From Desulfovibrio sp. OttesenSCG-928-I05 (GTDB lineage: Bacteria > Desulfobacterota > Desulfovibrionia > Desulfovibrionales > Desulfovibrionaceae): 37,548 bases of DNA. Of the stretch, positions 13,875 to 19,251 are shown piece by piece. The notes beneath the pieces are model-generated. The model did not search any database and was not told the origin of the DNA. It was given only the letters and a program-made list of their open reading frames with translations. A program made the translations under genes and the position numbers. Location: NCBI GenBank assembly GCA_030266385.1, contig JAJDHY010000005.1, positions 1-37,548 of the forward strand, read 5' to 3'. Position 1 is the first letter of the stretch; each line of letters begins with the position of its first letter.

Positions 13875-14312
13875 CTATTCCGAATGCGCCGCCTGGTATC
13901 CCTGTCCACGGCCCGAACCGTCCTTGGCACCCCATCCCATGCCGCCTCCCGTCATGTGCGCGGGCTTGTTCCAGGAGAGCAATTGTTCCACCGGCGCAAC
14001 GCGAGCAAGAGTAGCCCCGTAAATAGCCACGCTGAGTGAAAGCGCCAGCACGGCAGGCGCGGCGGCCTTCCAGCTGAAAGAGAAAGACTTTCTGGTATAG
14101 GCCAACAAGGCGCGGTAATTCAACAGCATATGCCACATCCCGGCCGCGATAAAAAGAAATCCGCCCGTGATATGAATATCCTTCCATTGCAGCACGGTAA
14201 GTCCGAGTACATTGACACCCGCCCCCTTGGGCAGCACATAGAGCACCACGGAAGAAATAATGAGAACAAGAAAGGAAACAGTGGTAAGAAGAGAAATAGT
14301 CCGGCGGATCAT
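13875..14312 (-). CDS. DUF4405-like small membrane protein with histidines in helices
   Basis: A 145-aa inner-membrane protein with three to four hydrophobic helices (about residues 6-28, 43-63 and 83-105). Histidines occur in W-K-D-I-H-I-T-G-G and in W-H-M-L-L-N-Y, the arrangement seen in DUF4405 proteins, which resemble small b-type cytochrome subunits; heme binding is a possibility, not shown. The tail is glycine-rich and would lie outside the membrane. I chose the ATG at 14312 for its AGGAGCG site; the open frame extends 23 codons further without one. It is divergent from the FmdE-like/ABC operon. Confidence 0.75.
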   Translation of the reverse strand: MIRRTISLLTTVSFLVLIISSVVLYVLPKGAGVNVLGLTVLQWKDIHITGGFLFIAAGMWHMLLNYRALLAYTRKSFSFSWKAAAPAVLALSLSVAIYGATLARVAPVEQLLSWNKPAHMTGGGMGWGAKDGSGRGQGYQAAHSE

Positions 14313-14436
14313 AGTCCACGCTCCTGTTGGTATAGTAGTGTCGCGCAATGCGATGACAGATAATAGCAAAGTACGTACCATTATGTATTATTTTGAAATT
14401 ATTTGATAAATATATAATTGCCTTCCTTTTTTCACC

Positions 14437-14481
14437 GTGCAGATTTGCACAATTTTGCACTTCCCTGCACATATTGTGCAA
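14437..14481. promoter_or_regulatory. TGCAC half-site array with 10-bp period
   Basis: TGCAC starts at 14446, 14456 and 14466 (10 bp apart, one helical turn), flanked by inverted GTGCA at 14437 and 14476. TGCACATATTGTGCA at 14466-14480 is a near-perfect palindrome. It lies in the 460-bp divergent region between the DUF4405-like gene and the FmdE-like operon, which otherwise has an AT-rich stretch (14381-14420) and nothing coding that I can support. The binding protein is unknown. Confidence 0.6.
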
Positions 14482-14680: not shown

Positions 14681-14703
14681 TTGAAAATGATATTCGTTTT
14701 CAA
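14681..14703 (+). promoter_or_regulatory. Fur-box-like palindrome upstream of the FmdE-like/ABC operon
   Basis: TTGAAAA (14681-14687) and TTTTCAA (14697-14703) are inverted arms around TGATATTCG. The site fits two overlapping 7-1-7 half-site pairs like the Fur motif described for Desulfovibrio (TGAAAAT-N-ATTTTCA), with two to three mismatches each. A weak -35-like TTGCGC lies just upstream at 14668. The start codon of the first gene is ~70 bp downstream. Iron-dependent repression is predicted, not shown. Confidence 0.6.
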
Positions 14704-14774: not shown

Positions 14775-15362
14775 ATGGTTCACAGCGTCCCGCACCACCC
14801 CTTGCTCATCGCCCCCTCAGACTGGGCGGAACCAGTCATCCGCGTCAGCGACGACGGCAGCCCCGCCCTGTTCACCTTGCAGGATGCCTTCAACTATCAC
14901 GGCTATGACGCGCCGGGCGGTGTGGTGCTGGGCTTTCGTCTGCTGCAACGCGCATTCGCCCTGCTGGCTCCGGATTCGGCATACCCGGAACGTAAAAAGC
15001 TCTCCCTGTTCACGTCATTTCCCGGCCTCGGCCTGAAAGACACGATGGAACTTGTCACCCGCATGGTGACCGAAGGCCGCTACTGCGTCGATTCGAGCTA
15101 TTGCGACCCGCGCGCCCAGGAAGGCGTTGCCGGGCGCTTTTATTACCGCTTCACCCTCACATCCTCCGCAGCCGGAACGCCCGCCACTGTGGAACTGGCC
15201 CCTGTCGAAGGCTATCCCAGCCCGGAGTTCATCAGGCTCGGCAAGGCCTCCAAACGCCCCGGCTTCAGCGCAGCCGATGCCGAAGCCTGGAAAACGGCCA
15301 AGTTCTCTCTGGCCAATACCCTGCTCGGCGCACCCGCCGAAGCGCTTGTCAGGGTGCTCTGA
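14775..15362 (+). CDS. FmdE-like protein A, first gene of a NitT/TauT-type ABC operon
   Basis: A 195-aa soluble protein without signal peptide. Residues ~36-100 resemble the FmdE domain (formylmethanofuran dehydrogenase subunit E type): Y-H-G-Y-D-A-P-G-G-V-V-L-G-F-R at the place of the usual HGHxCPG motif, then an amphipathic helix, F-P-G-L-G-L-K-D and E-G-R-Y-C-V-D. The metal-binding His/Cys of typical FmdE are only partly kept, so zinc binding is doubtful. It is clearly paralogous to the protein encoded at 17940, sharing AFxLLxPD, FPGxGLxD and VxEGR. AAGAGG precedes the ATG. Its stop codon overlaps the permease start by one base, which implies translational coupling. Function unknown; a link to metal or cofactor handling is inference. 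Confidence 0.7.
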   Translation: MVHSVPHHPLLIAPSDWAEPVIRVSDDGSPALFTLQDAFNYHGYDAPGGVVLGFRLLQRAFALLAPDSAYPERKKLSLFTSFPGLGLKDTMELVTRMVTEGRYCVDSSYCDPRAQEGVAGRFYYRFTLTSSAAGTPATVELAPVEGYPSPEFIRLGKASKRPGFSAADAEAWKTAKFSLANTLLGAPAEALVRVL

Positions 15363-16117
15363 TGCCTGCGCTCCGGACACTGCTCACCCCGCTATTGCTT
15401 GTCGTTTACTGGCAGATCATTGCCGGTTCCGGGCTTGTCTCGAACTACCTGCTGCCCACGCCCATGACCGTGCTGCATTCAGCGCTCGCCATGTGGCAAT
15501 CCGGCGTGCTGCCGGAACATATCAGCGCATCCCTCACGCGTATCGTGTTCGGGTTTTCCCTGAGCAGCGTCGCGGGCTTATTGTTCGCCGGGCTGATCAC
15601 GCGCTTTTCTCCGCTCAACGAACTGCTGGCCGCGCCGCTGGCGCTTTTGCGCATGATCCCGCCGCTGGCCATGACGCCGCTGCTCATCCTCTGGCTGGGA
15701 ATAGGCTCAGCCACGCAGTACACCATCATTATCATGGCCTCCTTCTTTCCTATCTTCCTGAACGCCCGCGACGGCTTCTGCCGGGTGACGGAACAACACC
15801 GGGAACTGGCGCACAGCCTGAACCTTTCCACCTGGATGTACGTTTCGCGCATTGTGGTTCCCAGCGCGGTGCCCTCCATTGTGACCGGCCTGCGCCTTGC
15901 CTTCGGCTACAGCTGGCGTTCCCTGATCGGCGCGGAACTTATCGCCGCAGCCAGCGGGCTCGGGTATATGGTCATCAACGCCCAGGAAATGCTACGGACC
16001 GACGAAGTTTTTGTGGGCATTCTTGTTATCGGCATTATCGGCTGGCTGCTGGATGCGCTTTTCATGCAGGGCATCAACCGCCTCCTGCGCCGCCGTTTTC
16101 CGGAGATCGCATCATGA
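15362..16117 (+). CDS. NitT/TauT-family ABC transporter permease
   Basis: A 251-aa inner-membrane subunit of an ABC importer of the nitrate/sulfonate/bicarbonate type (SsuC/TauC-like), with six hydrophobic segments. The conserved cytoplasmic loop is visible late in the protein: S-L-N-L-S-T-W-M-Y-V-S-R-I-V-V-P-S-A-V-P followed by I-V-T-G-L-R-L-A. The start ATG overlaps the upstream stop (TGATG), and the stop overlaps the next gene's start (ATGA), so the three genes are tightly coupled. The open frame continues upstream to 15101 but only as a shadow of the preceding gene. Substrate unknown. Confidence 0.9.
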   Translation: MPALRTLLTPLLLVVYWQIIAGSGLVSNYLLPTPMTVLHSALAMWQSGVLPEHISASLTRIVFGFSLSSVAGLLFAGLITRFSPLNELLAAPLALLRMIPPLAMTPLLILWLGIGSATQYTIIIMASFFPIFLNARDGFCRVTEQHRELAHSLNLSTWMYVSRIVVPSAVPSIVTGLRLAFGYSWRSLIGAELIAAASGLGYMVINAQEMLRTDEVFVGILVIGIIGWLLDALFMQGINRLLRRRFPEIAS

Positions 16118-16863
16118 ACGCTGCCAGCCACCCGATGACAGACAACGCGGACATGACGTCCGTGCTGGAAAAGATCAGCAAGCAATTCGGCAGCCATACG
16201 GTGCTTGACGGCGTCTCACTATCGCTGGCCGAAAACGGCATTACCTGCCTGCTCGGCCCTTCCGGCTGCGGTAAATCCACCCTGCTCCGCATCGCGGCGA
16301 GCCTGCTTCCGGCGGACGGCGGGTCCGTACATATCGATCCGCGCGAAGCGGCCATGGTTTTTCAGGAACCCCGCCTGCTGCCCTGGTTGACTGTAGAGGA
16401 AAACCTCAGTCTCGCCATCCAGAACGCCTCTCCCGCAGACCGGGCGGCGGGTATTCGGGACGTGCTGTCACTGGTCGAACTTGGCGACATCGCGCAGTTG
16501 CTCCCCCGGGAGCTTTCCGGCGGCATGGCGCAACGGGTCGGACTGGCCCGGGCGCTGCTCAGGCGTCCCCGCTTTCTGCTCATGGACGAACCCTTTGCCG
16601 CGCTGGATGCCATTACCCGTGCCGCGCTCCAGAAAATGCTCGTCGCCCTGATCGCGGAACAGCGTGTCACCTGCCTGTTCGTGACCCACGATATTAATGA
16701 GGCGCTTCTCATCGCCAACCATATCTATGTCACAAAAAACGGCACCATCATGCTGGATTGCGCATCCACACCCGAACTGGCATCAACCGTTCCCGACGAA
16801 AGCGCCCGCTGCGCGAGAGAAAACGTCAGGGAACGGATACTTTCCTATTTGCAAAAAACGTAA
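16114..16863 (+). CDS. NitT/TauT-family ABC transporter ATPase
   Basis: A 249-aa cytoplasmic ATP-binding subunit that powers the permease next to it. Walker A G-P-S-G-C-G-K-S-T, the Q-loop in M-V-F-Q-E-P-R-L-L-P-W, signature L-S-G-G-M, Walker B L-L-M-D-E-P-F and the H-loop F-V-T-H-D are all intact and in order. The Q-E-P-R-L-L-P-W sequence is characteristic of the SsuB/TauB branch. It overlaps the permease gene by four bases and is followed 23 bp later by the binding-protein gene. Confidence 0.93.
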   Translation: MNAASHPMTDNADMTSVLEKISKQFGSHTVLDGVSLSLAENGITCLLGPSGCGKSTLLRIAASLLPADGGSVHIDPREAAMVFQEPRLLPWLTVEENLSLAIQNASPADRAAGIRDVLSLVELGDIAQLLPRELSGGMAQRVGLARALLRRPRFLLMDEPFAALDAITRAALQKMLVALIAEQRVTCLFVTHDINEALLIANHIYVTKNGTIMLDCASTPELASTVPDESARCARENVRERILSYLQKT

Positions 16864-16886: not shown

Positions 16887-17825
16887 ATGAAACGCATCGC
16901 CCTTCTCGCCGTCATGGGATTCCTTTTCCTGAGCGGCAACGCGTTCGCGGCCAAGAACGAAGTCGCCATCAGCTATGTGAAATCCCCCTTCAACCTCCAG
17001 ATGATTGTCATGAAGGAACACGGGCTGCTGGAAAAGGAACTCGCCCCCCTCGGCGTCTCCGTGAGCTGGCCGGAAATCAACTCCGGGTCCAAACAGGCAC
17101 AGGCCATGGCTTCCGGTGACCTGGATATCTGCGGCGTCATGAATTCCACCTCACTGCTCATGGCCGCCAGCGAAGGCATGCCCATCAAGATCATCGCCGG
17201 GGTGGCGCGGCCCACGGACGTCTTCGCCCTGATGGGCAGAAAGGGCGGTCCCGCCTCCATCAAGGAACTCAGAGGGAAAACCATCGCCGGTCCCAAAGGC
17301 ACTGTCCTGCACCAGCTCCTTGTTGCCGCGCTGGCCACGGAAGGCATGACGCTCAAGGACGTGCAGTTCTTGCAGATGGATATTCCCCAGAGCTTCGCGG
17401 CCATGCAGGGCGGCAAGGTTGACGCGGCGCTGCTGGCCGCCAACATGGTTATCAAGGCCGAAGAAGAAGGCGCAGCCAAGATTGCCACCGCCACCGGCCT
17501 TGTGGTCCCCAAACTGGCCATGATGGGGTCCGATTCCTTCATCAAAAACCATCCCGACCGCCTCAAGGCCGCTATTGCCGCCCATGACAAAGCCTGGCAG
17601 TGGATCACGGAAAACCACGACGAAGCCATTGCCCTTGGCGCGAAAATTCAGGGGATCAGCATAGAAGACGCCGAGCGGCTCTTTGAATGGTCTTACTTCA
17701 CCCAGCGCTTCAACCAGAGCGATATCGAAAGCATGAAAGATGACATGCAGTTCCTGCTTGATAACGACATGATGCGCAAGACCGTGGATGTTTCCACCCT
17801 TATCATCCCCGAAGCCATGGAATAA
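16887..17825 (+). CDS. NitT/TauT-type periplasmic substrate-binding protein
   Basis: A 312-aa secreted binding protein (SsuA/NMT1-like fold). The signal peptide MKRIALLAVMGFLFLSGNA is cleaved near AFA-AK. The mature start (E-V-A-I-S-Y-V-K-S-P-F-N-L) and the segments G-S-K-Q-A-Q-A-M-A-S-G-D-L-D-I-C-G and L-R-G-K-T-I-A-G-P-K-G-T are typical of the family, which binds nitrate, sulfonates, thiamine precursors and other small anions. An AAAGGA site precedes the ATG. It belongs with the permease and ATPase just upstream. The ligand cannot be predicted; Fur-box control would point to an iron-linked molecule. Confidence 0.9.
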   Translation: MKRIALLAVMGFLFLSGNAFAAKNEVAISYVKSPFNLQMIVMKEHGLLEKELAPLGVSVSWPEINSGSKQAQAMASGDLDICGVMNSTSLLMAASEGMPIKIIAGVARPTDVFALMGRKGGPASIKELRGKTIAGPKGTVLHQLLVAALATEGMTLKDVQFLQMDIPQSFAAMQGGKVDAALLAANMVIKAEEEGAAKIATATGLVVPKLAMMGSDSFIKNHPDRLKAAIAAHDKAWQWITENHDEAIALGAKIQGISIEDAERLFEWSYFTQRFNQSDIESMKDDMQFLLDNDMMRKTVDVSTLIIPEAME

Positions 17826-17939: not shown

Positions 17940-18482
17940 ATGTCACAGGCAAGCACCGAACCGTATATCACCCTTCTTGATCAGGACGGAGAAATCACGC
18001 TGCGCCGCGAGGATCTTCTCAAATACGCGACCAACGCCAACGTCATTGCGGCGGCGCTGATGATCCGCGTCTGCCGTCTGGCCTTTTCCCTGCTTTCCCC
18101 GGATGCCCCGGTCAAACGCCGGGAACTGTACTGGACCCTCGGCTTTCCCGGTGCCGGTCTGGTGGACTGCGTGGAGATGATATCCCACGCCGTGCGCGAA
18201 GGCCGCTGCCTGCAACAGCCGGAATGCAACCATCCTGACGCGCCCTTTTCCCTGAACGGCCAGATGGTGTTCACCATAGGCTACGCGGGCAAACGCCTCC
18301 AGCTCTGGCCGGATCCATCCGTCTTTGACGATGAATTCCGCTCGGAAGTCGCCGCCTGGCAGGAACTGCCGGATGATGCCCCCGGCCGCGACGCGTTCTT
18401 GCGCTACAAGGAAGGTAAAGTGCAGGACATCATGACGCTGGCCGACGAAGCACTGCTGCATACCCGCTGGTTGAAAAACTAG
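17940..18482 (+). CDS. FmdE-like protein B, paralogue of the 14775 gene
   Basis: A 180-aa soluble protein, homologous to the first gene of the operon: [23 protein letters not shown] and A-V-R-E-G-R match AFALLAPD, SFPGLGLKD and MVTEGR there. The HGH-type motif of classic FmdE is lost altogether (the position reads T-N-A-N-V-I-A-A-A). A Cys/His cluster follows (Q-P-E-C-N-H-P). AGGAG lies ahead of the ATG at 17940. Sitting at the far end of the ABC transporter genes, it probably serves the same system as its paralogue, perhaps as a heteromeric partner. No function is known to me. Confidence 0.65.
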
Positions 18483-18558: not shown

Positions 18559-19251
18559 ATGAAAAAATTCGTTCTTTGCGCAGTGCTGTGCATACTGTTC
18601 GTGCTGCCCTGCGTACCCATGGCGCAGGACGGACCTGCGTTCTGATCACTCGTGATCTGGCCCGTAGCGGAACAATACGCGTGCCTCATGGTACGTATCG
18701 ACGAGCCGGACACGGATTTCCGCCCCGCTGAAATTCTCGCTGTGGCGCGAAAGGAAATGGAAGAGCGCAAGCTGCCCCTGTTGCAGATCGCGTTGTATGA
18801 AGAAGACAAAGCGTTCGGTGAGGGAGCCTTTGCGGTTGCGACCATGCGAAAGGACGGCCCCCGGAACCCTGAATTTACCCGTCCGGCAAACCGGGAAGAA
18901 GCGCTGCAACTGGAATACTCGCTGGGCTACAAAGTTTCCTCCGCTCTACTGGCCCGAGAATTCGCGGATGATCCCTCCGGCGCGGGGGAAAGGTATCAGG
19001 GCGTTCTGCTGCTTCTGGAAGGCCCGGTTCTGCGCGTCGGGTCCGGCTTCGGATCCGGCGACGGAGGGCAACCTGTTATCCTGTTCCACGAAAAAAGCGC
19101 CAATAGCCCTGCTATCACGGCGTTTCTGCCGCCATCCGATCCCTTTGCCGCCCGGATACGACAGGGTACGACTGTCGTATATCAAGGCGATGCCAGAAGC
19201 CTGTTCGATAACGCCGTTCTGTGCATGGGACGGGTTGTCGGGATACAATAG
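18559..19251 (+). CDS. secreted protein gene with in-frame TGA after the signal peptide
   Basis: From the ATG at 18559 (AGGA upstream) the frame encodes a Sec signal peptide, MKKFVLCAVLCILFVLPC, then V-P-M-A-Q-D-G-P-A-F and a TGA at 18643-18645. The same frame continues without another stop for 201 codons to 19251 (IWPVAEQYACLMVRIDEPD...VVGIQ). The second part has no ribosome site at its GTG (18652) or ATG (18688), so it seems meant to be joined to the signal peptide. The TGA sits at the edge of a small perfect palindrome, GATCAC-TC-GTGATC. Choices are selenocysteine, programmed readthrough, a nonsense mutation (pseudogene) or a sequence error. I do not recognise the mature domain. It follows the FmdE-like gene by 76 bp and may belong to its operon. 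Confidence 0.55.

Follow-up and report, generated by a model that had tools for sequence, protein, structure and literature searches.

The window analysed here, a stretch of 37,548 nucleotides from Desulfovibrio sp. OttesenSCG-928-I05, contains an operon of five genes on the plus strand, encoding F1, an ABC permease, an ABC ATPase, a substrate-binding protein (SBP) and F2. F1 (14775-15362) is a protein of 195 aa with a predicted FmdE fold. The permease (15362-16117; PF00528, 2.6e-23) is of the SsuC/TauC/NtrB type and scores below the cut-offs of the SsuC and TauC models. The ATPase gene (16114-16863; PF00005, 3e-28) shares its first 4 bp with the end of the permease gene. The periplasmic SBP (16887-17825; PF09084, 5.5e-24) is SsuA/TauA/NMT1-like and displays a signal-peptide-like stretch at its N terminus. 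F2 (17940-18482) is a paralogue of F1 that lacks the HG metal motif, identified by hhalign (probability 99.5%, E = 2.4e-22 against the F1 family); it is conserved as the last gene in five of six relatives that carry the operon, the sixth (G181) being cut by a contig end. On the 3′ side of the operon lies a gene of secreted type (18559-19251) with a weak tRNA_anti-like match and an in-frame TGA just past the signal peptide. In four distant relatives the frame is open and Cys is absent from the vicinity of the TGA position, and a premature stop or a sequencing error is therefore likelier than selenocysteine.

The preliminary description of this DNA had called the operon "FmdE-like", a label that holds at the level of the predicted fold. 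The structure predicted for F1 (pLDDT 72.9) matches 2glz (Z 10.8), 3d00 (Z 9.0) and 2gvi (Z 8.3) first, with the next match at Z 5.2, and on this model F1 has the alpha+beta core fold of FmdE. F1 has no Pfam match, the PF02663 model finds none among seven members of the F1 family with E values allowed up to 10, and a profile comparison of F1 with true FmdE members (probability 0.5%) gives no sequence link; the predicted fold and a short HG motif are thus the two features by which F1 would be connected to FmdE. The FmdE metal motif FHGHxC reads YHGYDA in F1, with two ligand positions changed. By eye, neither F1 nor F2 displays a signal peptide, and a cytosolic role therefore seems likely. A protein of 375 aa in another genome (G245, L052:2149-4072) combines two FmdE-like domains in one chain. 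Its gene adjoins one for a FecE/HmuV-like ATPase assigned to the iron-complex class, and the contig ends before the remainder of the operon is reached.

Permease, ATPase and SBP belong, as judged from their sequences, to the sulfonate/taurine/nitrate class of ABC importers. The best structural matches of the SBP model are SsuA (Z 33.6) and TauA (Z 31.9), and the protein reaches 148 bits against SsuA_fam (cut-off 163.5) and 72.3 bits against taurine_ABC_bnd (cut-off 304.25). At E <= 1e-60, the SBP is found in the genome of the window alone among 395 genomes of the phylum, which are a sparse draw.

A spacer of 393 bp separates the operon's first gene from a divergent gene for a DUF4405 membrane protein (13875-14381, minus strand). 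Within this spacer, 94 to 72 bp 5′ of the F1 ATG (14775), lies the 23-bp sequence TTGAAAATGATATTCGTTTTCAA (14681-14703, without assigned strand), a predicted Fur operator. The inverted arms TTGAAAA (14681-14687) and TTTTCAA (14697-14703), already pointed out in the preliminary description, are present and perfect over 7 bp each. The site resolves into two dFUR-boxes (14681-14697 and 14687-14703) that overlap with a shift of 6 bp. Compared with the E. coli box GATAATGATAATCATTATC, 15 of 19 bases agree; if this box is written with N at its centre, shuffling the upstream 300 bp 1000 times gives only one sequence that matches as well as the site. The delta-proteobacterial box WTGAAAATNATTTTCAW is matched on either strand, in each case at 14 of 16 informative bases. 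The same spacer holds a second inverted repeat (14445-14481), made up of TTGCACAAT (14445) and ATTGTGCAA (14473), at which a different regulator might control the divergent DUF4405 gene. An Rfam scan of the window finds no family that reaches threshold, hence no known riboswitch there.

Fur boxes of delta-proteobacteria follow WTGAAAATNATTTTCAW, a Desulfovibrio site is made up of a pair of them that overlap, offset by 6 bp, and spans 23 bp, and the E. coli Fur consensus is reported to fail in delta-proteobacteria (Rodionov et al. 2004, PMC545781). Since the plain E. coli consensus is a weaker guide here, published Desulfovibrio sites were chosen for a position matrix: 20 box pairs were joined into 23-mers and made strand-symmetric, the window sequence being excluded. 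The site at 14681-14703 scores 32.1 bits, close to the upper end of the range of the training sites (19.3-33.2 bits), which are themselves predictions. The runner-up position in the 37.5-kb window reaches 11.3 bits and overlaps the same site. AT-rich spacers often contain short palindromes, and the repeat at 14445-14481 is a further example in this very spacer, so that the site might be a chance palindrome in an AT-rich intergenic stretch. We consider this extremely improbable, because the score is attained in none of 300 dinucleotide shuffles of the whole window (best scores with mean 11.7, sd 2.8 and maximum 24.3 bits) and in none of 5000 shuffles of the intergenic region (maximum 20.0 bits), and because the site recurs in related operons (see below). 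The genome-wide check was carried out with a 23-bp pattern instead of the matrix. With up to 3 mismatches, 14681-14703 is the sole match on both strands of the 1.7 Mb of genome searched (about 54% complete), in which a reversed control of the pattern finds no match.

A search with F1 in 288 genomes of the same family yields five clear orthologs with 49-58% identity. The gene order F1-permease-ATPase-SBP-F2 is identical in all of them, as far as sequence extends in G181, which ends inside the ATPase gene at a contig end. A matrix match is located upstream of F1 in all five (G181, 30.4 bits; G183, 28.3; G178, 24.3; G008, 22.8; G170, 31.9), each scoring higher than any of 1000 shuffled versions of the respective upstream region. 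Among 120 kb of sequence from these and other loci there are six matches of at least 22 bits, and these are exactly the operator of the window and those of the five orthologous operons. As a positive control, the matrix finds matches of at least 19 bits at 8 of 10 feoB loci of the same genomes. The window's neighbour genes, DUF4405 and IclR, are not found at the ortholog loci, and therefore the site travels with the operon. The Fur-box-like operator of the preliminary description is hence borne out by its layout, by the strong match to a Desulfovibrio Fur matrix and by its conservation in front of all orthologous operons detected in the family. A more distant relative (G174) carries an operon of similar kind with one FmdE-like gene (SBP 52%, permease 48% identity), upstream of which the matrix finds no such Fur site. 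The canonical FmdE genes of relatives (L088-L096) have no Fur site in their flanks. A further match to F1, in G214, was rejected as spurious, as its frame contains four stops and its flanks no operon.

The full five-gene operon is also present in Leminorella grimontii, an enterobacterium and thus a gammaproteobacterium (L031:5001-8474; SBP 65%). This operon is as close to that of the window as are the copies of the same family, which suggests horizontal transfer. Its upstream sequence AATGAGAATTGATATCATT includes TGAGAATTGATATCA, in which 12 of 15 positions conform to the 7-1-7 Fur pattern TGATAATNATTATCA if N is scored as matching, a fit equalled by 13 of 1000 shuffles. The -35 element of a promoter-like pair (TTGATA-17-TAAAAT) falls inside this Fur-like site. 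The Leminorella operon thus probably has a weaker Fur-like site over its putative promoter.

Within the family, the box of G181 opens with a hexamer that is a perfect -35 element (TTGACA), with TAAAAT 16 bp further on, and G178 and G170 display weaker versions of it; Fur bound to the box would obstruct polymerase there. No convincing sigma-70 promoter overlaps the box at 14681-14703 in the window, and the exact mode of repression is therefore one that we infer. One gene of the FUR family was found elsewhere in the genome, on contig C166; its product is nearest to Fur proteins in NCBIfam and PDB, with scores below the Fur equivalog cut-offs. As the genome is only about 54% complete, further FUR-family regulators may be missing from the sequence.

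The site could alternatively be the operator of another repressor of the FUR family (PerR or Zur), or it could serve an unrelated regulator whose AT-rich palindrome happens to look alike. Both PerR and Zur belong to the protein family of Fur, the genome is incomplete, and some PerR boxes elsewhere are Fur-like, e.g. that of Desulfotalea (12 of 18 informative bases). However, the published PerR and Zur consensus sequences of Desulfovibrio agree with the site at 8 of 14 informative bases each, versus 14 of 16 for the Fur box, and the 23-bp double-box layout is specific to Fur sites in Desulfovibrio. We therefore regard such a regulator as improbable, and 14681-14703 as very probably the Fur operator of the F1-permease-ATPase-SBP-F2 operon, with Fur expected to bind there and to repress.

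On the basis of these comparisons, control of the predicted operon by iron appears well supported, and the data suggest that the importer is made when iron is scarce. In a possible mechanism, Fe(II)-loaded Fur would occupy both overlapping boxes under iron sufficiency and keep RNA polymerase off the promoter; upon iron scarcity, Fur would leave the site and the importer would be made. The two FmdE-fold proteins would then probably act in the cytosol on the imported cargo, perhaps as a heterodimer of F1 and F2.

As cargo we favour an iron chelate or metal ligand that is small and anionic, a link to iron that we infer, though only by a narrow margin over an iron-sparing nutrient; a Fur site by itself does not distinguish between these options. 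In the latter case the operator would still be one of Fur, and the importer would carry an iron-sparing or sulfur-linked compound (a sulfonate, a thiamin or flavin precursor, or similar) for which demand rises in low iron. We give this possibility somewhat less than an even chance. It would agree with the affinities of the SBP, whose nearest neighbours by both sequence and fold are SsuA and TauA, followed by the NMT1/Thi5 group, and with the ssuA2B2C2 operon of C. difficile, whose expression rises strongly in low iron as well as in a fur mutant (PMC6311696). That operon, too, is described as one of SsuABC type; it differs in that no Fur site was found upstream (PMC6311696) and in that its fourth gene is hydrogenase-like and not FmdE. 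This iron-responsive precedent fits either reading of the cargo. On the other hand, the SBP stays under the family cut-offs of both SsuA and TauA, most FmdE genes adjoin genes of metal-ion transporters (PMC2954224), and the fused double-FmdE gene of G245 stands beside an ATPase gene of the iron-complex class, which hints at a paired function tied to metal complexes.

Returning to the iron chelate, we tentatively hypothesize a new iron-acquisition system, which appears possible but rather less than probable: an SsuABC-type importer of an anionic iron chelate or metallophore, together with a cytosolic FmdE-fold heterodimer (fused in G245) that would take the metal or the ligand from the imported complex. 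With either cargo, an importer found in several genomes of Desulfovibrionaceae type and in one enterobacterium would be placed in the iron regulon, by which its substrate is narrowed, and the poorly understood FmdE fold would gain a regulatory setting.

The SsuABC and TauABC sulfonate importers have permease, ATPase and binding protein, as well as the fold of the latter, in common with the present system. Unlike them, the operon's proteins remain below the curated SsuA, SsuC and TauA cut-offs, and the importer is flanked by two FmdE-fold genes with a Fur site in front. With the FmdE family (PF02663; 2glz, 3d00, 2gvi), F1 has in common a short HG motif and, by prediction, the fold. Two zinc-ligand positions are altered alike in F1 and 3D00 (His to Tyr and Cys to Ala), and 3D00 binds no zinc there (PMC2954224). 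Unlike the FmdE family, F1 has no sequence match to PF02663, and two separate paralogues occur in one operon. The literature on FmdE in connection with Fur or iron transport, as far as searched, yielded no description of this operon. The dFUR-box sites of Desulfovibrio (PMC545781) display the same 17-bp consensus and the same overlapping pair shifted by 6 bp, they lie at a similar distance from the first gene, and the score of the present site is within the published range. The site table of that study contains no importer with FmdE-like genes, so that the present target is new relative to that list. The type of regulation is not new; the novelty would be a further member of the Fur regulon.
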